Origin: Betaproteobacteria bacterium
GTDB lineage: Bacteria > Pseudomonadota > Gammaproteobacteria > Burkholderiales > JAEUOS01
Length of the DNA stretch: 64,000 bases
Reading direction: 5' to 3'
Assembly (NCBI GenBank): GCA_028292405.1
Contig: JAQGMJ010000040.1
Span: 124,001-188,000, forward strand
Shown in pieces: positions 7,044 to 18,220 of the stretch (position 1 is its first letter; each line of letters opens with the position of its first letter). The translations under genes and the position numbers were made by a program. Under the pieces are notes generated by a model. It saw nothing but the letters and a program-made list of their open reading frames with translations. It did not search any database and had not been told where the DNA came from.

Positions 7044-8777
7044 TTATGCGTGCGGCGCCGCGTCGCCGGCGACTATTCGTTCCAGTATGTGACCGGCCAT
7101 GCCATTGGCCAGCTCATGTTCGCCGATGAAGACGCGGCCGGCCTGTTCGCGGCGCAGCAGTTCCGCCTCCTCTTCGCTATGGGTGCGCACCACTGTCTCG
7201 ATGCCCGGGTTCAGCAACCGCGCGGTCTCGAGCATGCGCCGTGCGGCGAAGGCATCAGGCGTTGCGATCACCAGCATGCGGGCGCGCGCGATGTGCGCCT
7301 GGACCAGCACAGCCGGCTCGGCGGCATCGCCGCGCACCGCGGCGATGCCGCGCCGGCGCAGGTCTTCGACCAGCTCGCGGTTTTGTTCGGCCACGACGAA
7401 GGGTACGCCGCGCGCCAGCAGGGCTTCGCCGATGCGCCCGCCGACGCGGCCGTAGCCCACCAGCACCACCTGCCCGTTGAGGCGCTCGGGTTCCACCGTC
7501 GCCGGCAATTCGGCCAGCGGATCGTCGCGGCGTTCCAGGCGCCGCGCCAGGTCGGAGCGCGCGCGGATCCAGCGCTGCGCCGGCTCGATGGCGGAGAACA
7601 CCAGCGGGTTGAGCGCGATGGAAATGATCGCACCGGCGAGAATCAGGCTTTGCCCGGCCGGCGGCAGCAGGCCGAGCGAGACGCCCAGGCCCGCCAGGAT
7701 GAAAGAGAACTCGCCGATCTGCGCCAGCCCGGCCGACACCGTCAGCGCGGTGTTCAGCGGGTAGCGCAGCAGCAGCACCAGGGCCATCGCCGCCAGCGAC
7801 TTGCCGATGATGATGATCGCCACCACCGACAGCAATTGCAGCGGCTGCTCGAACAGGATGCGCGGATCGAACAGCATGCCGACGGAGACGAAAAACAGCA
7901 CCGAGAAGGCGTCCTGCAGCGGCAACGAATCCTCGGCCGCCCGGTGGCTGAGTTCGGACTCGCGCATCACCATGCCGGCGAAAAAAGCGCCGAGGGCGAA
8001 GGAGACGCCGAACAGTTCCGAGGAGGCATAGGCGATGCTGATGGCCGCAGCGATCACGCACAGGGTGAACAGCTCGCGCGAGCCGGTGCGCGCCACCTGC
8101 CACAGCAGCCAGGGAAACAGGCGCCGGCCGACCACCAGCATCAGCGCGACGAACAGGGCGACGCTGCCGAGGGCGAAAAACAGGGTGTGCCAGAGGTTGC
8201 CGGGAACGGCCTCGGCATGCCCGGCATCGCCACCGGCCGGCGCGTGGCCGCCGAGCCAGCCCGCCAGCGGCGGCAGCAATACCAATACCAGCACCATCAC
8301 AAGATCTTCGACCACCAGCCAGCCGACGGCGATGCGGCCGTTGATCGACTCCAGCACGCCGCGCGCCTCCAGCGCCTTGAGCAGCACCACCGTGCTGGCC
8401 ACCGACAGCGCCAGGCCGAACACCAGGCCCGCGCCCAGGCTCCAGCCCCACAGCGAGGAAAGGCCGATGCCCATCAAGGTGGCAACGGCAATCTGCAAAA
8501 TGGCGCCGGGAAGGGCGATGCGCTTGACCGCCATCAGGTCGTCGATCGAAAAGTGCAGGCCGACGCCGAACATCAGCAGCATCACGCCGATTTCCGCCAG
8601 CTGGGCCGAAAGCGCGGCATCGGCGACAAAGCCCGGCGTCGCCGGCCCGACCAGGATGCCGGCCACCAGGTATCCCACCAGCGCCGGCAGCTTCAGGCGC
8701 ACGGCGATGAAGCCCATCACCAGCGCCAGGCCGAAGCCGGCGGCGATGGTGGTGATCAGGGGGAGGCTGTGGTGCAT
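7044..8777 (-). CDS. ybaL: CPA2 family cation:proton antiporter with TrkA-N domain (YbaL/KefB-like)
   Basis: Multi-TM Na/H exchanger domain (LPALVGYLVAGILVGP) plus VVLVGYGRVGGRIGEALL Rossmann domain. Confidence 0.85.
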   Translation of the reverse strand: MHHSLPLITTIAAGFGLALVMGFIAVRLKLPALVGYLVAGILVGPATPGFVADAALSAQLAEIGVMLLMFGVGLHFSIDDLMAVKRIALPGAILQIAVATLMGIGLSSLWGWSLGAGLVFGLALSVASTVVLLKALEARGVLESINGRIAVGWLVVEDLVMVLVLVLLPPLAGWLGGHAPAGGDAGHAEAVPGNLWHTLFFALGSVALFVALMLVVGRRLFPWLLWQVARTGSRELFTLCVIAAAISIAYASSELFGVSFALGAFFAGMVMRESELSHRAAEDSLPLQDAFSVLFFVSVGMLFDPRILFEQPLQLLSVVAIIIIGKSLAAMALVLLLRYPLNTALTVSAGLAQIGEFSFILAGLGVSLGLLPPAGQSLILAGAIISIALNPLVFSAIEPAQRWIRARSDLARRLERRDDPLAELPATVEPERLNGQVVLVGYGRVGGRIGEALLARGVPFVVAEQNRELVEDLRRRGIAAVRGDAAEPAVLVQAHIARARMLVIATPDAFAARRMLETARLLNPGIETVVRTHSEEEAELLRREQAGRVFIGEHELANGMAGHILERIVAGDAAPHA

Positions 8778-9003
8778 GCGCGGGTCCGGAGGGGCGGATC
8801 AGGATAGCCAAAAAGTGCGGATCGCGACAGTGGCGGACTTGCTGCGCGCATCCCTTAGAATCGGTATTGCAGCGACAGCATACGCCGCCGGTCGCGGCGG
8901 ATTGCGCAACAGGGCCGGCCGATGCGGTAATCTCGTGGCTGGGTCAAACATACAATAGGCGTATTGCCGCGGGCGGCAGTGCGCGCGACAACGAGCAGAG
9001 ACA

Positions 9004-9972
9004 ATGCAACTCACACGATTGATGGGCGTACTGCTGCTGGCCGCGGCCGGCGCAAACACACATGCGCAAAGCGCCTATCCCGACCATCCGGTCAAGCTGG
9101 TGGTGCCGTTTGCCGCCGGCACCACCACTGACATTGTCGGCCGCGAAGTCGGCCATGCGATGTCGCGCGGCCTGGGGCAGCCCTTCATTATCGACAACGT
9201 CGCCGGCGCCGGCGGCAACGTCGGCACCGAGCGCATCGCCAAGGGACCGAAAGACGGCTACAGCCTGGTGCTGGGCACGGTGGGTACGCATGCGATCAAC
9301 AGCGCCTTGTATTCCAATCCCGGTTTCGATCCGCTGAAAGATTTCGCTCCCATCGGCTTCGTCGGCTACACACCGATGCTGGTGGTCGCCGCGCCCGCCT
9401 TTCCCGCCAACAATATCGCCGAGCTGATCGCGCTGGCCAAACGCACGCCCGGCAAGGTTACCTTCGCCTCCGCCGGCAACGGCACCTCCAACCACCTGGC
9501 GGGCGAACTGCTCAAGGTGATGGCCGGCGCCGACATGCAGCACGTGCCCTACAAGAGCGGCGCCCAGGCGCTGACCGACGTGATGGGCGGGCAGGTCGGC
9601 ATCATGTTCTATCACATCCCCGCGGTGATGCAGAACATCAAGGCCGGCAAACTGAAGGTGCTGGCAATCGCCAGCATCAAGCGCAGCCCGGCCATGGAAA
9701 ACGCGGTGCCGATCGCGGAGCAAGGATTCACCGGCTTTGACATGACCCCTTGGTGGGTGCTGTACGCGCCAGCCGGCACGCCGGCGCCGGTGCTGTCACG
9801 CTTGCGCAGCGAATTTGTCGCGGTCAACAAGCAGCCCGAATACCTCGCACGCCTCGGAGCACAGGGGATGGAATTCCGCGCCATGAATCCGGAGGAGCTC
9901 TCGGCCTTCCTGCGCGCCGAGTTGCCGAAGTGGGCCAAGCTGGTGAAGGACTCGGGCGCGCGCATCGACTGA
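9004..9972 (+). CDS. Bug/TctC family tripartite tricarboxylate transporter substrate-binding protein
   Basis: Signal peptide; YPDHPVKLVVPFAAGTTTDIVGR...VAGAGGNVGTERIAKGPKDGYSL. Confidence 0.9.
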   Translation: MQLTRLMGVLLLAAAGANTHAQSAYPDHPVKLVVPFAAGTTTDIVGREVGHAMSRGLGQPFIIDNVAGAGGNVGTERIAKGPKDGYSLVLGTVGTHAINSALYSNPGFDPLKDFAPIGFVGYTPMLVVAAPAFPANNIAELIALAKRTPGKVTFASAGNGTSNHLAGELLKVMAGADMQHVPYKSGAQALTDVMGGQVGIMFYHIPAVMQNIKAGKLKVLAIASIKRSPAMENAVPIAEQGFTGFDMTPWWVLYAPAGTPAPVLSRLRSEFVAVNKQPEYLARLGAQGMEFRAMNPEELSAFLRAELPKWAKLVKDSGARID

Positions 9973-10101
9973 ACATGTAGCGTAGGCGCAAACTGGATTT
10001 GTGCCGGCGCAAATGCCCATTGGCTGTGCATCGTCGCGGCCACAAGCGCCCAAGCAGGTGCATCGCCCGCCATTTTGCGCGGAAAAAAGTGTATACAAAC
10101 C

Positions 10102-10117
10102 TGGCATAGCGCCTGCT
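10102..10117 (+). promoter_or_regulatory. Candidate sigma-54 (-24/-12) promoter
   Basis: TGGCATAGCGCCTGCT: GG and GC at the canonical spacing; palindrome TGTATACA just upstream (10090-10097). Confidence 0.45.
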
Positions 10118-10166
10118 TTAGCCCTGGGTAAGCAGCCGCCTTCGCGGCTTTTTACTCGGGGGTTTC

Positions 10167-11234
10167 ATGAAAAGACGTACCTTCCTTACGGCCGCCGCCG
10201 CGGCCGCCGTCGCGCCGCACATCTCGGCTGCTGAACCGCTGAAAATCGGCTTCATCTACTCCGGCCCGATTTCCGACGGCGGCTGGACCTACCAGCACGA
10301 ACTGGCGCGCAAGTCGATCGAAGCCGAGTTCGGCGACAAGATCAAGACCTTCTACGTCGAGAGCGTGCCCGAGAGTGCCGAGGCCGAGCGCTTCATCCGC
10401 CAGTTCGCGATGGACGGCTGCAAGCTGATCTTCACCACTTCCTTCGGCTTCATGGACCCGACCATCAAGGTGGCCAAGCAGTTTCCGAAAGTGATTTTCG
10501 AGCACGCCACCGGCTACAAGCAGGCGCCCAACGTGGGGATTTATCAAACCCGTTTTTACGACGGCGCCTACATGATGGGCGTGCTCGCCGGCAAGATGAC
10601 CAAGACCAACGTGCTGGGCTTCGTCGCCTCCTTCCCGATCCCCGAGGTGCTGCGCAATATCGACGCCTTCACCATCGGCGCGAAAAGCGTCAACCCGGCG
10701 ATCAAGACCAAGGTGGTCTGGGTCAGCACCTGGTTCAACCCGGCGAAGGAACGACAGGCCGCCGAAGCCCTGATCGGCGAAAAAGCAGACGTGCTCTACC
10801 AGAACACCGACTCCCCCGCCGTCATCCAGATCGCGCAGGAAAAGGGCCTGTACGCCTTCGGCCAGGACTCCGACATGTCGAAGTACGGCCCCAAGTCCCA
10901 GCTCTCCGCCAACACCGTCAACTGGGGCGTCTACTACAAGAAGAAGGTTGCCGACGTTCTCGCCGGCAAGTGGAAGTCCGAAGACACCAAATGGGGCATG
11001 AAGGAAGGCATGATCGAACTGGTGGCGCTGAACCCCGCCGTGCCGGCCGACGTCGCCAAGCTCTACGAGACCAAGAAAAAGGCCCTGCTCGATGGCACGC
11101 TGCACACCTTCGGTGGCCCGGTGAAGGACAATACGGGCGCCATCAAGGTCGCCGCCGGGCAAGTGCTGCCGGAGAAGGACCTGTGGTCGCTCACCTGGTA
11201 TGTCGATGGCGTCGAGGGCAGCGTTCCAAAGTAA
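10167..11234 (+). CDS. BMP family ABC transporter substrate-binding protein
   Basis: KIGFIYSGPISDGGWTYQHELARKSIEAEFGDKIKT...IFEHATGYKQAPNVGIYQTRFYDGAYMMGVLAGKMTK. Confidence 0.9.
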   Translation: MKRRTFLTAAAAAAVAPHISAAEPLKIGFIYSGPISDGGWTYQHELARKSIEAEFGDKIKTFYVESVPESAEAERFIRQFAMDGCKLIFTTSFGFMDPTIKVAKQFPKVIFEHATGYKQAPNVGIYQTRFYDGAYMMGVLAGKMTKTNVLGFVASFPIPEVLRNIDAFTIGAKSVNPAIKTKVVWVSTWFNPAKERQAAEALIGEKADVLYQNTDSPAVIQIAQEKGLYAFGQDSDMSKYGPKSQLSANTVNWGVYYKKKVADVLAGKWKSEDTKWGMKEGMIELVALNPAVPADVAKLYETKKKALLDGTLHTFGGPVKDNTGAIKVAAGQVLPEKDLWSLTWYVDGVEGSVPK

Positions 11235-11268
11235 CCCAAGTAAAAACCACCACCGTAACGGAGGCCGC

Positions 11269-11730
11269 ATGACAGCCGAAGACGACGCACGCTATATGCG
11301 CATGGCCATCGATGCTTCGCATGAGGCCTTGCACGAAGGCAACATGCCCTACGGCGCGGTCATGGTGAGCGCCGATGGTGAACTGGTGCATGTGTCACGC
11401 AACAACCAGGTCACCAGCGGCGACTGCACCGGCCACGCCGAAACCGTGCTGATCCGCGAAGTCTGCGCCGCCCATGGCGCAGACAAGCTCGCCGGCGCCA
11501 CCGTCTACGCCAGCGGCGAGCCCTGCGCCATGTGCGCGGGCGCTATCTTCTGGGCGAAGGTGGCGCGGGTGGTGTTCGGCGCCAGCAACGAGAGCATCAT
11601 GTCTGTCTGCGGGCCGCCCACGCTTAGTCTCAACACCGCGGCCGTGCTGGCCGCCGGTTCGCACGCCATCAAGGTCGAAGGGCCGCTGCTGGAAGAAGAA
11701 GCGGTGGCCGTGCTGCGCGAAAAAGCCTGA
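11269..11730 (+). CDS. Nucleoside deaminase (CDA/guanine deaminase-like)
   Basis: Zn motifs GHAETVLIREV and PCAMCAGAIFWA; start ATG at 11269. Confidence 0.9.
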   Translation: MTAEDDARYMRMAIDASHEALHEGNMPYGAVMVSADGELVHVSRNNQVTSGDCTGHAETVLIREVCAAHGADKLAGATVYASGEPCAMCAGAIFWAKVARVVFGASNESIMSVCGPPTLSLNTAAVLAAGSHAIKVEGPLLEEEAVAVLREKA

Positions 11731-11983
11731 CCTGAACGGCAGCGCGAGCCGCAGCAGCACCGCGATGCAACGCCGTCCGAGACGCGCAATTCGTCCAGGT
11801 GAGTAAGACGCCTCCTACGAGGTTATAGGCAACTTCCCGGTACAAGCGGTCGCCAGCCTTCGGCAAACTGTGGTTCATCGCGGTGTTCCCCCAAGTAAGC
11901 ACCGCAAGGTCATCCGGCATGGTCCCCCCCGTGCCGGAATGACCTCGAGTTTGCTAACCTCCCCGGTGAATTCGACTTCATAG

Positions 11984-12018
11984 CGCGGCTGACCTTCGGG
12001 TCCGCCGCGTTTTTTTTC
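11984..12018 (+). terminator. Rho-independent terminator, UUCG tetraloop
   Basis: CGCGGCTGACCTTCGGGTCCGCCGCGTTTTTTTT. Confidence 0.8.
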
Positions 12019-12026
12019 GTCCGGGC

Positions 12027-12932
12027 TTATTCCAGAAACTTCTTGATCGCCACGATGGTCGGCCCCGGTGCTTCTTCCATCAGCCAGTGCCCCGCCTCCG
12101 GCACCACCAGCTCGGTGACATTCGTCGCCGCATTGCGCATCACGATCGCCTCGTTCGCCCCGAACGACTTGGCCCCGCCGATCGCCAGCACCGGCATGGT
12201 CAGCTTGTTGCCCATCACCTTCTGGTTCTGCTCCGCGTCCTGGTTCAGCACCAGGAATTGCGCAAAGGCAGAATGCATCGCCCCCGGGCGCGCATAAAGC
12301 CTGGTGTAGTGCCGCCGCATCCCCTCGTCGAACTTCTTCGGGTCCCCCGCGAACTCGTTCCAGAAGCGGTCCAGGTAAATCCGCTCGCGGCCCGCCACCA
12401 GGCGCTCCGCATCCTTGCCGCCGAAGTTGAAATGCCACAGCGCCGGCAGGCGCACGATCTGGTCCCACGGCGCAATGCCCGGCACCGGCGCATCCATCAC
12501 CACCAGGCGCTCGGTCTTCTCCGGATAGCGCGCCGCCTAAGCGTAGGCCACCATGGTGCCGATGTCGTGGCCCACCACCGCGGCCTGGTCGATCTTCAGC
12601 GCGGTCAGCACCGCGCGCATATCCGCCGCCTGGTTCCACTTGTCATAGCCGCCCTCCGGGTGCGAAGACAACCCCATCCCGCGCAAATCCGGCACCACCA
12701 CCGTACGCGTCTTCGCCAGCTCGGAGGCCAGTGGCGACCACATGTCGCCACTGTCCCCGAAGCCATGAATCAGCAACACCGCCGGCCCCTGGCCGCCGCT
12801 CACCACATGCAGGGTCGCCCCCTGGGCCTCGATCTTCTGGGTCTTGAACGACTTGGGGAACGGCTTCACCTGCGCCACCGCCGGCAAGGCCAGAGCCAAG
12901 GCGACGGCAAACGCGGCTATGTTCTTTATCAT
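12027..12932 (-). pseudogene. Alpha/beta hydrolase (epoxide hydrolase/dehalogenase-like) interrupted by in-frame TAG at 12537-12539
   Basis: MIKNIAAFAVALALALPAVAQ...LLIHGFGDSGDMW...VVGHDIGTMVAYA*AARYPEKTERLVVMDAPVPG...AGHWLMEEAP, same frame on both sides of the stop. Confidence 0.85.
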
Positions 12933-13210
12933 TATTGACTCCTGACCCGGTTGGGGGACGGTCCCTGCGGCCATCGCGACTTGCGCGTGGGAATGCGCCA
13001 GTATGGCAGACCGCGAAAGCGGTGGTTGCAGAATCAGGGTGCCGACGCCAATTTATCTCGTGGCCGCGATCCGGCGGAAATATTCCGGGCAAATGCGGCA
13101 GTTCAAATTGGATTGCGCTTCACGAACGCTCCCCGGTCATCGGACTCAACATGTTGCCGGCCCGAAGATAAGGTCTTGTCTGGGCGCCGCCCGCGGTTTC
13201 TGCTATGACA

Positions 13211-13873
13211 TCAGTGGCAGGTAGCCTGCGTCGAGTCCTCGTCGTCGTCCGGCACCAAGGCAGGCGAGTCGGGCGAGCCGATGGCGTTGAAGACCTTCAA
13301 CGCCGCGAAAGCGTCGTTGGCCGCATAAATCAATTGTTCCGGGCGAAGCTGCCTTGCAGCCCAATTCGACAACGTCACCCGCTTCGACTTGCTCAGCCGC
13401 TGATGGAGCACCACGGCAACGGCCGCCTTGATACCCAACTCGTCCTTGTGCCCGAGGGTTCGCAGCGCATGCGAAAGATCAACGCCCCCACGCAGTTGGA
13501 TGCCAAGGTTGCGAGACAAGGGAAGGCGATCAGAGCGCAATCCAAATCCGACCTTGACGATCTCTTCGGATTCGAGAATCGCCTTCAGGAACGCCAACGC
13601 ATGCGGGTGCTGCACCTGCACGATATAAGCGCTCCCCTGCAGTGCAAACTGGATCACGTGCGGTCCCAGACGAACAACGTCTTTGGCAAACGTAGGTTTT
13701 GATTCGGTATCGAATCCGACGAACCTTTCCCTTTCGATTGCCCGGCGCGCCGCTTCGAAGTCCGCCGCCAGGTCCAGCGTATGGATTTGCTCCAGCTTGA
13801 GGCCCTGAAACAGGGGAAGCAGCAACACCTCCTCGCGGCTGGGGCGAAGCCTGAACGATTTTAGTTGTGTCAT
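13211..13873 (-). CDS. 3'-5' exonuclease, RNase D-like DEDD fold
   Basis: FVGFDTESKPTF, IVKVGFGLRSD, YAANDAFAALKVF. Confidence 0.75.
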   Translation of the reverse strand: MTQLKSFRLRPSREEVLLLPLFQGLKLEQIHTLDLAADFEAARRAIERERFVGFDTESKPTFAKDVVRLGPHVIQFALQGSAYIVQVQHPHALAFLKAILESEEIVKVGFGLRSDRLPLSRNLGIQLRGGVDLSHALRTLGHKDELGIKAAVAVVLHQRLSKSKRVTLSNWAARQLRPEQLIYAANDAFAALKVFNAIGSPDSPALVPDDDEDSTQATCH

Positions 13874-13900: not shown

Positions 13901-14596
13901 CTATTTATGCTTCTCCATAAATTCCTTGACCGCCTTTTCGGCGCGCGCCACCTGTTCGGAAACGCCCTTGAAAATGAACTGGTAATCGTCGCGGCCAACC
14001 GTGCTCACGGAAAACGTTTCGGCGCCGAACAAATCGCAATAGCGATTGAAAACGTTTCGGGCGCGCTCCAGCAGGGCCTCCATCTCCGAATCTGAAAAAG
14101 GCGCCGGGCCGGACGCAACATCCAGTGCAGTTTTCGCGCTGCGGTGTCCAAGCGCGCCACCCCGAAACTGAACAAGCCTGCGCACCAACGGGTCTTTATG
14201 CTCGCAGGCATGAATGTCGTTATCCAAAGTCGTCGCGTCAAGCATGCCAGGCGTACTTGCCGGACTGTCCTCAAAAGGATTTACCGGCGAGCGATTTTTG
14301 GATGCGGTCTTCTCAAAAGCCTGCAAATTGTCCTTGATCGCTTCCAGCCATCCCAGAAGGTGCAGTGATTTGCCGTCCTTATCGTAGGCCCGGCACAAAT
14401 GCAGCACGGCTGATTCCGCATGCGCATTGAGCGTCAAATACCAGAAGGTATTCGATTGCTGCCCCACGGCTGGCTGCGCCTGCAAGGCCGCCAGAAGGTC
14501 GCAATACAGCTTCCAGTGAACATGCGCATCGGCAATCTCCCTGGAGAGCGCATTGATGAGGCGCCTGAATTCTTCCGGGCTTTTGGAGCGTGCCAT
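13901..14596 (-). CDS. Hypothetical protein, HEPN-like (AbiU2-type resemblance)
   Basis: Helical protein MARSKSPEEFRRLINALSREIADAHVHWKLYCDLLAAL...NTFWYLTLNAHAESAVLHLCRAYDKD with RGGALGH (R-x5-H). Confidence 0.45.
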   Translation of the reverse strand: MARSKSPEEFRRLINALSREIADAHVHWKLYCDLLAALQAQPAVGQQSNTFWYLTLNAHAESAVLHLCRAYDKDGKSLHLLGWLEAIKDNLQAFEKTASKNRSPVNPFEDSPASTPGMLDATTLDNDIHACEHKDPLVRRLVQFRGGALGHRSAKTALDVASGPAPFSDSEMEALLERARNVFNRYCDLFGAETFSVSTVGRDDYQFIFKGVSEQVARAEKAVKEFMEKHK

Positions 14597-14806
14597 GTTT
14601 ATCTGTTCCGAGGAGCGCGATTGGGCGGGTTGCAATCCGCGAGCGATGATCGTAGCACTGCGGGTCTATTCGCGCCGAATGCGTGCTTGAGAGGACTTGC
14701 AGTAACTTTGGGCGATATTCGAAGGTAACTTAGTCAACGCGGCCAAGCTATGTGCTGGATAGCGCTTCGCTGTTCATGGTTCCAAGTTCGAATAATCTTT
14801 GTGATT

Positions 14807-14858
14807 GGTTGCGCCGACGCGATTTGTAAATTGGAGGTAGATTCGCCTGCGCTAACGG
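14807..14858. repeat. Array repeat copy A
   Basis: GGTTGCGCCGACGCGATTTGTAAATTGGAGGTAGATTCGCCTGCGCTAACGG. Confidence 0.85.
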
Positions 14859-15194
14859 TTATGTGAATTGGGACAACTCTAAACCAAGGCCCAGCCGACC
14901 AGCCTCCCCAACCAGCGCCGCAGGAAATCGGTCGAACTGCACAGCCGCATCTCGCCTTTCAATGGCAAAGTCCAAAACGCCGCCGCCGCTTGCGGCGTTC
15001 ATCATCATCCTGATGTCCTCAGCATGGCGTTTGAGGAAAGTAATCGCGTCCTCAACCTGCTTCGACAAATCGCCGACTTCTGCACCGCTAACCTCGAAAT
15101 GCGCGGTGCCGTTCTCGATGCGATATGGCTTCAATGAAACTTGCGGAACCCTGATATCAGAAGGCAGGGTGGATATTCGGAGAATGCAGCTCAT
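14859..15194 (-). CDS. Cassette ORF 1, hypothetical protein
   Basis: 111 aa MSCILRISTLPSDIRVPQVSLKPYRIENGTAHFEVS...LDFAIERRDAAVQFDRFPAALVGEAGRLGLGLELSQF; between repeat copies A and B. Confidence 0.7.
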   Translation of the reverse strand: MSCILRISTLPSDIRVPQVSLKPYRIENGTAHFEVSGAEVGDLSKQVEDAITFLKRHAEDIRMMMNAASGGGVLDFAIERRDAAVQFDRFPAALVGEAGRLGLGLELSQFT

Positions 15195-15230
15195 GAAGGA
15201 CCTTTTCGTAGCGTCTTACGGTGAGGCTAT

Positions 15231-15282
15231 GGTTGCGGTGACCCGCTTACTGAATTGGAGAACAATTCGCCTGCACTAATCG
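15231..15282. repeat. Array repeat copy B
   Basis: GGTTGCGGTGACCCGCTTACTGAATTGGAGAACAATTCGCCTGCACTAATCG. Confidence 0.9.
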
Positions 15283-15653
15283 GCGTTGCGGAAAACGTCC
15301 AGGGCCTCGCGCTGTCTCACTTCAGGCTTCGTTTCGCCAAACGCCACCACTCCGACATCGATGCCATAGATTTCCTCGAGCTCTTTGGAAGAGCTCTCGA
15401 GGTGCAGAATTTCCTCCAGGTCGTGGAGTCCTATTCCCCGATATGTCGTCACATCTCCTGGTCCGTCGTGAATAGCGTCTCCAAAGCCGTCTACCCAGAG
15501 TATTGCTTTTGCATACGCTGCCTCCGCATTTTCCGCAACAAATAATTGCGCGTGCACGAAGTACTTAAAGTGCGTGCGACGACCGGCCTCGACCGTCAAA
15601 TCGATCCATTGGTCTTCTATTTCGACTACGAAGTGGGCTACATAGAGCGGCAT
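15276..15653 (-). CDS. Cassette ORF 2, hypothetical protein
   Basis: 125 aa MPLYVAHFVVEIEDQWIDLTVEAGRRTHFKYFVHAQLFVAENAEAAYAKAI...; stop codon lies inside repeat B. Confidence 0.65.
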   Translation of the reverse strand: MPLYVAHFVVEIEDQWIDLTVEAGRRTHFKYFVHAQLFVAENAEAAYAKAILWVDGFGDAIHDGPGDVTTYRGIGLHDLEEILHLESSSKELEEIYGIDVGVVAFGETKPEVRQREALDVFRNAD

Positions 15654-15682
15654 GACTGTCTTGATCTCGCCTATGGCTGTAT

Positions 15683-15734
15683 GGTTGCGGTGACACGATT
15701 TGGTAACTGTAGAAAGATTCTACTTCGCTAATTG
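15683..15734. repeat. Array repeat copy C
   Basis: GGTTGCGGTGACACGATTTGGTAACTGTAGAAAGATTCTACTTCGCTAATTG. Confidence 0.85.
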
Positions 15735-16015
15735 TCCCGAGTGACGAACTCATCTAACACAGTAAACATTTGGTTTGCAACCGGCGCGAACTTCGGATCA
15801 TCATGTGAGAATGGGTTTGAGTCGATCCATTCAATAAGTACCGCGTCCGGCTTGAGTACCTTATCTCTATTGATCCAGTCAAGCGTGTCTGGGTCCACAT
15901 CAAGATGCTCGTAAGTATCGCCGAGCATCACGATGCGCGCTTTTGCCGATCCGCTCGGGACGGGCACTGTAACGCGATCGCCTAAGCAGACTTCCTGGCC
16001 GTCATGATATTTCAT
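15728..16015 (-). CDS. Cassette ORF 3, hypothetical protein
   Basis: MKYHDGQEVCLGDRVTVPVPSGSAKARIVMLGDTYEHLDVDPDTLDWINRDKVLKPDAVLIEW...; stop inside repeat C. Confidence 0.65.
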   Translation of the reverse strand: MKYHDGQEVCLGDRVTVPVPSGSAKARIVMLGDTYEHLDVDPDTLDWINRDKVLKPDAVLIEWIDSNPFSHDDPKFAPVANQMFTVLDEFVTRDN

Positions 16016-16040
16016 CGTATCTGGCGTCTTGAGATACTTT

Positions 16041-16092
16041 GGTTGCGTTGACCCGCTTACTGCGTTGGAGAACAATTCGACTGCGTTAGTGC
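16041..16092. repeat. Array repeat copy D
   Basis: GGTTGCGTTGACCCGCTTACTGCGTTGGAGAACAATTCGACTGCGTTAGTGC. Confidence 0.9.
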
Positions 16093-16589
16093 CCGGTCTT
16101 TTTCTGCTGGGCTAAGTCTTGAAACCGACGGGCTACTTGATTGCCGGAATCAATAGCCATTGCGGCATCCAGATCCGGAATAGCATGGTCATAGTCGCCT
16201 TTTAAGTAATAGGCGACGCCTCGATCTGTTAACAAAGCGGATGCTCTCAAGCTTTGCGTATTGTCCTTTAGTACCGTGTTTACCCTTAGCGCCTCGCTAA
16301 TATCCAATATGGCACGATCATAATCACGTTTTTTTAACCAGGCTTGCGCGCGGTGCTTCAAAGCATAGATTAATTCTTCGGGGGACGGGCGGGATGCAAT
16401 ATATCTTGTGCATACATCTATCCTTCTATCGGCCTCAAATTGTGAATCAACTACTGCGCACGCGTCAGCGTCGCTACTTTGAGGATAGCCAGGCGTCATT
16501 CCGGCGCAAAGCAAAGCGAGAACAAAAAGGCCTGTCCGGCGATTCGGGATGAAACGCGAGAATCTCCCATTGGCCGGGTCCATTTTCAT
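16086..16589 (-). CDS. Cassette ORF 4, secreted TPR-repeat protein
   Basis: N-terminal hydrophobic segment; AQAWLKKRDYDRAILDISEALR and GVAYYLKGDYDHAIPDLDAAMAID TPR units; stop inside repeat D. Confidence 0.7.
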   Translation of the reverse strand: MKMDPANGRFSRFIPNRRTGLFVLALLCAGMTPGYPQSSDADACAVVDSQFEADRRIDVCTRYIASRPSPEELIYALKHRAQAWLKKRDYDRAILDISEALRVNTVLKDNTQSLRASALLTDRGVAYYLKGDYDHAIPDLDAAMAIDSGNQVARRFQDLAQQKKTGH

Positions 16590-16637
16590 TGCGCTCTCTC
16601 CCTCTGAGATTCATGGCTTATCGAGCATTGATTGACT

Positions 16638-16689
16638 GGTTGCGTAGACCCGCTTTGTTAGTTGGAGACAGATTCGACTTCGATAGTGA
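16638..16689. repeat. Array repeat copy E
   Basis: GGTTGCGTAGACCCGCTTTGTTAGTTGGAGACAGATTCGACTTCGATAGTGA. Confidence 0.9.
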
Positions 16690-16700
16690 CTAGGCGGCCT

Positions 16701-16967
16701 TTATTCAGGCACTTTTCTTTTTAGATTGGAGATCGTCACATCGACCAGCCGCGTATTCCTATTTACGCGTGCCGTACTAATTATTATCGCGTCAGATGGC
16801 CGCTCAGTAGCGACATAGAGTTGGAAAATCCTGTGCTCGTCATCGGGGAAAAATGTGCCTAAGGTGAGGTTTTCCTTCCACTCTTTTGGTACCGATTCAT
16901 AGTCCAGAAGAGCGTCTTGCGTAGCAGAGCGCGCGAGTTCCTGAAGTTCGTCGAGTTCCTTCGACAT
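16701..16967 (-). CDS. Cassette ORF 5, hypothetical protein
   Basis: 88 aa MSKELDELQELARSATQDALLDYESVPKEWKENLTLGTFFPDDEHRIFQLYVATERPSDAIIISTARVNRNTRLVDVTISNLKRKVPE, between repeats E and F. Confidence 0.65.
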   Translation of the reverse strand: MSKELDELQELARSATQDALLDYESVPKEWKENLTLGTFFPDDEHRIFQLYVATERPSDAIIISTARVNRNTRLVDVTISNLKRKVPE

Positions 16968-16980
16968 CCTTAACCTCTCT

Positions 16981-17002
16981 GGTTGCGGAGACCCGCTTTG
17001 AA
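16981..17002. repeat. Array repeat copy F, truncated (first ~20 bp only)
   Basis: GGTTGCGGAGACCCGCTTTGAA, then divergent sequence. Confidence 0.75.
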
Positions 17003-17223
17003 CCTGTCACGCGCATTATATTGATACGGCGGAACAAGCCTCGGCAAATATCTTAAGCCCGTCCCGGCCGATTGCTTATCTTGCCCGGCGCTGCAAGCAA
17101 AAAAACGTCGATCTGATTGTTTTTATTAAGTTTTATGAGTGCCTCGCGCTGTTGAAAATCAACCACACTTAGTTCATCGACCTGCGTATCTTTGGTTCTC
17201 AGTGATCTATTACTGGAGCCGCC

Positions 17224-18075
17224 ATGGACACCCAACTCACCTCCCGCCAGGAACGCTTCGTCTTCGAATACCTGAAGGACCAGAACGCGAGCGCCGCCGC
17301 GGCGCGCGCCGGCTACACCGCCAAGAACATGGCCGCGCAGGGCAATGAATTAATGAGCAACCCGGCCGTGCGCGAGCGGGCACGGCTGGAGATGCAAAGC
17401 TTGCTTGCGGAGATACGCTGCTCGGCGCTGGAGTTGATGAAGCAGCGCATGCGCGCGGCGTTTTTTGATCCGGGGAAGTTGCTCAAGGGCTGGGAGCCGA
17501 TCCGGCCGGAAGACCTTGATGAGGAGACGCGGCGGGCGGTGGAGGTGAGCACCGTCATGCGCAAGAGCGGGCCTGAGATAAGGGTGAAGCAGCCGGACAG
17601 GCACAAGGCGCTGCGGGCGCTGGAGAAGATGCATGAGCGGCTGGATGTGCTCAACGAGAAGTATTACGCTCAGCTTGAGAGGGCGGGGGAAATTCCTAGC
17701 CTGGAAGAGATCGAGCGGCGCGCCGATGAGGCGGAGCGGGCCGAGACGGAAGCGGCGGCCGGCGAGATTTCGGAAGAACCTATGGTTTTGTCAGGTTTGG
17801 AGGCGGCCGGGGAAATCCGGGCCTCGCAAATTTACGAAGAACCTAGGGTTTTGCCAGGTTTGGCGCCGAGCGCGGGCGAAACGCAGGCCGCAGCATTTTC
17901 GGAAAAACATCAGGATTTGTCAGGTTGCCCCTCAGCGCCCTTTTTGATGGGGCCACCGCTTCCGGAGAATTATGCTTTTCCCGACGCGGTGTCCTTTGAG
18001 GACGTTTTGTTAAGCCCGGCGGCGCGGGCGGCGCGAGCGCGAGGGGCGGCATTTGCGGAGACGCCGCGACTTTAG
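17224..18075 (+). CDS. Phage terminase small subunit-like protein with repeat-derived C-terminus
   Basis: LTSRQERFVFEYLKDQNASAAAARAGYTAKNMAAQGNELMSNPAVRERARLEMQ...KALRALEKMHERLDVL. Confidence 0.75.
   Translation: MDTQLTSRQERFVFEYLKDQNASAAAARAGYTAKNMAAQGNELMSNPAVRERARLEMQSLLAEIRCSALELMKQRMRAAFFDPGKLLKGWEPIRPEDLDEETRRAVEVSTVMRKSGPEIRVKQPDRHKALRALEKMHERLDVLNEKYYAQLERAGEIPSLEEIERRADEAERAETEAAAGEISEEPMVLSGLEAAGEIRASQIYEEPRVLPGLAPSAGETQAAAFSEKHQDLSGCPSAPFLMGPPLPENYAFPDAVSFEDVLLSPAARAARARGAAFAETPRL
17761..17800 (-). repeat. Dispersed ~40-bp repeat, copy 1
   Basis: rc: CCAAACCTGACAAAACCATAGGTTCTTCCGAAATCTCGCC. Confidence 0.75.
17823..17863 (-). repeat. Dispersed ~40-bp repeat, copy 2
   Basis: rc: CCAAACCTGGCAAAACCCTAGGTTCTTCGTAAATTTGCGAG. 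Confidence 0.75.
17887..17929 (-). repeat. Dispersed ~40-bp repeat, copy 3
   Basis: rc: GGCAACCTGACAAATCCTGATGTTTTTCCGAAAATGCTGCGGC. Confidence 0.7.
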
Positions 18076-18144: not shown

Positions 18145-18220
18145 TGGTAGGCCGTGCGGGATTCGAACCTGCGACCAACGGATTAAAAGTCCGCTGCTCT
18201 ACCAGCTGAGCTAACGACCC
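18145..18220 (-). tRNA. tRNA-Lys (anticodon TTT)
   Basis: rc: GGGTCGTTAGCTCAGCTGGTAGAGCAGCGGACTTTTAATCCGTTGGTCGCAGGTTCGAATCCCGCACGGCCTACCA; D-arm, CTTTTAA anticodon loop, GGTTCGAATCC T-arm. Confidence 0.97.

Follow-up and report, generated by a model that had tools for sequence, protein, structure and literature searches.

Four loci of the genome analysed here carry arrays of short gene cassettes with one common architecture and sharp borders, and at least two of their genes belong to the cassette pool of integrons. One of these arrays lies in the window, that is, the whole stretch of 64,000 nucleotides that was analysed. With a probability of roughly 60%, they are integron-like cassette arrays built on a lineage-specific site other than attC and filled by site-specific recombination. 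Site-specific cassette capture is the best reading because of the layout, the cargo and the coincidence of the platform borders with the site itself. The arrays work like an integron, with cassettes that would be mobile; their building on a non-attC site suggests either an undescribed second route to stockpiling cassettes or an integron that has changed extremely.

Repeat copies and array architecture

The core pattern GGTTGCGNNGACNCGNTT was found six times in the window, as against once in total across 100 dinucleotide shuffles, and eight times in the 5.53-Mb genome, on a single strand throughout, where the reversed pattern did not occur. The five copies recognised in the initial annotation (A to E, at 14807, 15231, 15683, 16041 and 16638) were correct and aligned without gaps over 48-50 bp. 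Their spacing from A to E was 424, 452, 358 and 597 bp, with a sixth, core-only copy 343 bp further, at 16981. This copy F, which retains only the first ~22 bp, read on the + strand, closes the window array; that it is a half site with a conserved flank had been overlooked, as had three further arrays in the genome, although the window array itself had been rightly described (Table 1).

Table 1. Positions of the array, platform site and adjoining gene in the window
Feature	Position	Strand	Remarks
Full repeat copy A	14806..14855	-	after ORF1
ORF1	14859..15194	-	111 aa, no family
Full repeat copy B	15230..15279	-	after ORF2, whose stop codon it supplies
ORF2	15276..15653	-	125 aa, no Pfam family
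Full repeat copy C	15682..15731	-	after ORF3, whose stop codon it supplies
ORF3	15728..16015	-	95 aa; homologs elsewhere in canonical integron cassettes
Full repeat copy D	16040..16089	-	after ORF4, whose stop codon it supplies
ORF4	16086..16589	-	167 aa, TPR protein, N-terminus secretion-signal-like
Full repeat copy E	16637..16686	-	after ORF5
ORF5	16701..16967	-	88 aa; homolog in another genome heads the cassettes of a complete integron
attI-like half site F	16980..17008	-	gene-sense GACAGGTTCAAAGCGGGTCTCCGCAACCA; near-identical across all four arrays
TATAAT, candidate -10 box of leader promoter reading into array	17015..17020	-	not listed by consensus promoter scan
Leader of TerS-like gene	17154..17223	+	contains AATCAACCACACTTAG; conserved also at paralogs without arrays
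Terminase-small-subunit-like (TerS-like) gene, Terminase_2	17224..18075	+	head-to-head with array; one of six paralogs

A sequence-only repeat profile was built from ten copies, two copies from contig C61 being kept out of the model. Searched against the whole genome, it returned 12 full copies (E = 1.5e-16 to 3.5e-9) plus four half copies, at exactly four loci: five full copies on the window contig (C17), four on C62, two on C61 and one on C80. Window copies A to E scored between E = 5.8e-16 and 1.2e-14, values that partly reflect the construction of the profile from these same copies; the C61 copies, outside the training set, reached E = 3.9e-12 and 3.5e-9. Beyond these two, a third, incomplete copy was readable at L076 ~2207-2236. 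Information content was ~0 bits outside positions -48 to +1, counted from the last C of CGCAACC, and the element, 48-50 bp long with sharp edges, had copies ~70-75% alike. All confident copies were confined to the four arrays. REP-like single copies scattered between genes, which the initial annotation had held to be contrary evidence, were absent, since every other copy found lies in an array. A lone partial match at C20:5656 (L040 1500-1545), covering positions 15-55 at E = 0.001, precedes an ORF and may be a decayed copy or chance.

Read in gene sense, each of the arrays on C17, C61, C62 and C80 begins with the half site GACAGGTTCAAAGCGGGTCNCCGCAACCA, followed by (gene + full repeat)n, with genes always directed away from the half site. 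Such an integron-like organisation of one-gene cassettes in one orientation with a platform site at the start extends to four loci the gene-cassette-like topology proposed for the window. ORFs 1-5 do occupy the gaps between copies, all on the minus strand, without mutual similarity at E<1. The stop codons of ORFs 2, 3 and 4, correctly placed inside the repeat by the annotation, lie at exactly the same repeat base (-45), as does that of one C62 cassette, indicating that the repeat supplies the stop codon. ORF1 and ORF5 end 4 and 15 bp, respectively, before the border of their repeats, and the next start codon was located 11-49 nt past the repeat where measured. The GC content of the arrays was 0.51-0.52, compared with 0.62-0.65 in their surroundings. 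The array proteins were mutually unrelated (TPR, ankyrin, a weak zinc-ribbon-like protein and several without family), and the second C61 cassette contained just a 42-aa ORF. Genes for AbiU2, RibD_C and DUF4288 lie distal to arrays, with no recognisable repeat after them. The HEPN/AbiU2-like gene (window 13901-14635; Pfam E = 4.8e-25), directly distal to the window array and on the same strand, is perhaps an old cassette, or else a defence gene in its own right. On C62, the RibD_C (L014 16211-16852) and DUF4288 (15740-16117) genes are found past the last recognisable repeat and have none between them.

Only one draft genome (5.53 Mb, 92.9% complete) is known to carry the repeat. The profile search proposed in the annotation did reveal more copies, all in arrays, in this genome, but among 399 genomes of the order no convincing match was obtained and one weak hit was judged to be chance. 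This best outside match, in G386 (E = 1.7e-5), follows an apparent phage endolysin gene, with no array. A degenerate repeat pattern, able to recover 10 of the 12 full copies known, had no copy in 84,980 GTDB species or in IMG/VR. Among plasmid, phage and IMG/VR sequences, no match turned up for the array, the half site, the TerS-like gene or the two cassettes that were searched. Two genomes of the same family, G001 and G002 (L125, L126), were seen to carry a canonical intI and canonical attC-type cassettes, but not the repeats.

Cassette cargo and platforms

Homologs of ORF3 and ORF5 (54-67% identity) from distant Betaproteobacteria occupy ordinary integron cassettes with canonical attC, one of them beside intI. 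ORF3 homologs with 60 and 63% identity came from two of the 299 further genomes of the order; the GTDB scan gave five loci, one of which is apparently the first of these order-genome loci. Canonical attC-type borders accompanied ORF3 homologs (54-67% identity) in four of six distinct genomic contexts inspected, namely L109/L111 (textbook attCs, GCCTAAC...GTTAGGC), L110, L112 and L115; they were not clear in L113 and L114. ORF5 had homologs in three of 398 other genomes. The G070 homolog occupies the first cassette position in a complete integron, whose intI lies at L128 6603-7580, and is flanked by GTTAGAGC before the gene and by GCTCTAAC...GTTAGCC, a canonical attC, after it. The last C61 cassette gene had a single homolog among 299 other genomes, and searches of the four family members found none of these three genes. 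Conservation across the genus, which the annotation had considered as an argument against cassettes, was thus not observed: the three cassettes searched were sporadic (1-3 of 299-398 other genomes; 0/4 family members). The homologs in canonical cassettes show that at least two of the five window genes come from families carried by ordinary integrons; they belong to the integron cassette pool and are attached here to a different site. A PADLOC run on ten proteins assigned no defence family.

The platforms of C17, C61 and C62 are homologous from exactly the core of the half site through the TerS-like gene, while their cassette sides are unrelated. At these three arrays, the half site lies ~220 bp from a paralogous TerS-like gene in head-to-head orientation, which holds the place held by intI in integrons. 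Identical columns amounted to 90% in the last 40 bp (half site and TATAAT box), compared with ~50-60% in most of the leader. The TATAAT box is conserved in C17 and C61 and reads TATAGT in C62; it makes a good -10, with no good -35 at normal spacing. The C80 platform, in an unrelated context and without a TerS-like gene, shares 26 bp only, and this delimits the minimal site. Three of the six TerS-like paralogs in the genome adjoin arrays and three do not. All are intact, with dN/dS of 0.20-0.47 and dS of about 0.5-1.2, and the high dS together with these ratios indicates that the platforms are old and the TerS-like genes maintained. No similar TerS was found in IMG/VR or INPHARED at the settings used.

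Several observations were made around these paralogs. On contig C4, one of the three without an array (L103 6874-7617, -) lies head-to-head with the gene of a 1769-aa protein (7934-13243, +), a candidate defence gene; the protein has a P-loop-like motif, its AAA ATPase hit was sub-threshold only, and it is absent from PADLOC. A tRNA-Lys(TTT) gene lies a short way past the window's TerS-like gene (L019 12146-12221; window about 18145-18220, -). The motif CCTGAYAAAACC recurs in the 3' halves of TerS-like genes, where it encodes xEKPxVLSG-type peptides (window 17767-17941; L076 176, 239; L102 6805, 6895; L104 6618, 6669), possibly as a pac-like signal or as a dispersed repeat. It also occurs at window 52121, upstream of a miaB-like gene, and this copy outside the TerS-like genes weakens the idea of a pac site in them.

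Relation to attC sites and search for a recombinase

No complementary RYYYAAC/GTTRRRY pair (<=1 mismatch) was found in the four arrays on either strand; the identical R-box scan does detect the canonical attCs in L109/L111 and L128. RNAalifold gave 0 pairs and no consensus fold for the repeat copies, single-strand folding revealed no consensus on either strand, and single copies on the gene-sense strand had folding z-scores between +0.8 and -2. In the best attC-like structure drawn by hand, 60.8% of cells were paired, compared with <=37.5% when it was slid; its pairing equals the shuffle mean and its covariation remains at shuffle level. The repeat is a weakly dyadic sequence rather than a conserved fold. 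An attC-like structure suggested by copies A and C80a was discarded, its dyad being conserved but covariation absent, and a circular-cassette model, with each left arm paired to the right arm of the copy before it, brought no improvement by eye. An Rfam scan gave nothing relevant, and across 93 kb spanning loci of canonical integrons and of the homologs the repeat model had no match. XerCD dif-module (pdif) cassettes carry a 28-bp dif-like site with XerC and XerD arms; no TTATG-type XerD arm was visible on reading the core. The initial annotation had left a choice between a divergent family of attC sites and another kind of repeat that mobilises cassettes; the cassette topology and the cargo shared with canonical cassettes uphold this view in general, but its attC half failed on R boxes, fold and covariation, each of which was tested. 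For these reasons, the array cannot be called a CALIN, defined as a cluster of attC sites without an integron integrase (PMC9024848).

IntI (TIGR02249) had no match over the cut-off in the genome, at 92.9% completeness, and the earlier statement that no integrase is in view holds across the whole assembly. Three of four same-family genomes do possess IntI over the curated cut-off, with ordinary canonical integrons. The tyrosine recombinases found were a XerC-like and a XerD-like protein (C68, C19; named by reading) and a truncated integrase on C78; a single serine resolvase was found on C35. None of these is near any array, and no phage-type integrase was found within the array flanks. With an assembly 92.9% complete, a recombinase may be missing from it. 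On C78 (L079 8013-8851), a tRNA-Lys gene followed by the truncated phage-type tyrosine integrase is the remnant of an integrated element. A weak repeat-model match 0.7 kb from this tRNA-Lys integrase remnant was rejected, lying as it does in a cheB-like reading frame.

Interpretation and comparison with known systems

Under site-specific capture, the fixed platform consists of a ~29-bp attI-like half site and, at three of four arrays, a TATAAT box and a head-to-head TerS-like gene. It would receive promoter-poor cassettes, each made of one gene and a ~50-bp repeat at its 3' end, by recombination inside the shared core AAAGCGGGTCNCCGCAACCA. New cassettes would then enter beside the platform, readable from the leader, which would drive their expression. 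The preferred candidate is a recombinase that works on duplex DNA, since attI-like and cassette sites have about 20-26 bp in common and conservation of a single-strand fold is lacking; this enzyme may lie outside the assembled 93% or be a host or trans-acting one. The TerS-like protein might, from its position, serve as an accessory DNA-binding factor, a role in recombination that is a guess.

The chief competing explanation is a divergent attC system whose integrase was lost: ordinary IntI would have built a CALIN with extremely divergent attC and attI, the integrase being since lost or missing from the assembly while the sites drifted. The integron layout, the weak dyad kept in the repeat, the integron-pool genes and the canonical integrons of the relatives are all consistent with this scenario. 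It is nevertheless unlikely, given that the R-box pair, consensus fold and covariation beyond shuffles are lacking, that the canonical attCs of relatives and homologous cassettes do not match the repeat model, and that attI-like site and repeat have about 20-26 bp in common, not just the 7-bp core of integrons. Site-specific capture at a non-attC site has its own difficulties, since no recombinase was found besides XerC, XerD, the truncated tRNA-Lys integrase and one remote serine resolvase, the repeat occurs in one draft genome only and the leader -35 is poor. The second C61 cassette with its 42-aa ORF, the distal AbiU2, RibD_C and DUF4288 genes without repeat, and the three TerS-like paralogs without array also count against it. 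That the arrays form a second, IntI-independent capture system, with a lineage-specific site and a platform tied to a domesticated TerS, drawing on the integron cassette pool, is a tentative proposal, with the odds somewhat against it.

We consider it very improbable that the repeat represents an element of REP/MITE-like or regulatory type that was placed between the genes of pre-existing operons or amplified together with them. Copies ~70-75% alike with sharp ends, and a TTGGAG/CTGTAG motif that on direct reading loosely resembles a REP head tetranucleotide, would suit such an element. However, 12 of 12 full copies lie 3' of array genes in one orientation, a half copy of equal extent ends all four arrays, and the adjacent genes are unrelated, sporadic and of low GC content, with the ORF3 and ORF5 families occurring elsewhere in other contexts without repeats; no hairpin and, in gene sense, no promoter or terminator match was seen. 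There is equally little likelihood that the arrays are cargo of minimal phage-satellite-like elements, in which TerS-like proteins would redirect helper-phage packaging and the repeats would be secondary recombination scars. The adjoining TerS-like gene at three of four arrays, the six intact paralogs under purifying selection and a possible pac-like role of CCTGAYAAAACC inside these genes speak for it, but integrase, capsid and other phage genes were not seen near arrays, the motif occurs once outside a TerS-like gene, database searches at the settings used found no similar TerS, and the half-site/full-site layout is left unexplained.

Integrons are the known system for storing single genes in the form of exchangeable cassettes; to our knowledge, attC structure and IntI are the only features by which search tools detect them. 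The presence of integron-type genes on a different site means either that attC can diverge so far as to escape recognition or that integrons have a competitor for the same cassettes in another recombination system; under either reading, current searches miss cassette arrays. The same gene families with two unrelated sites (ORF3, ORF5) also make cassette origin, that is, how a gene gains its site, testable.

Among known systems, PICI/SaPI satellites with their own TerS (PMC6092414) are similar in that a TerS gene adjoins accessory cargo. They differ from the present loci, where integrase, replication and capsid-redirecting genes were not seen and the cargo is a cassette array with repeats; of a PICI-like module, the TerS-like gene alone was recognised, the flanks having been checked for phage-type integrase. 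For delta-attI-type cassettes, which have an attI-like border in place of attC, recombination has been reported (PMC12901181); their sites are attI1/attI2 fragments acted on by IntI1, and are likened to the present site by description. CALINs are likewise cassette arrays without integrase, here in a genome whose relatives have integrons, but they are defined by attC sites from a structural covariance model, and the R-box scan and fold analysis revealed no attC site here. In comparison with a complete integron, the array site is neither attC nor attI by sequence or fold, intI is absent, a TerS-like gene stands in its place at three arrays and the sites share about 20-26 bp rather than 7. With attC boxes, fold and IntI lacking, the arrays are therefore filed neither as integron nor as CALIN. 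They nonetheless resemble complete integrons in their platform site beside a divergent gene, the promoter-like box in the leader, cassettes of one gene and a 3' site, unidirectional array genes, borders tight around the ORFs and a cargo from the same gene pool.
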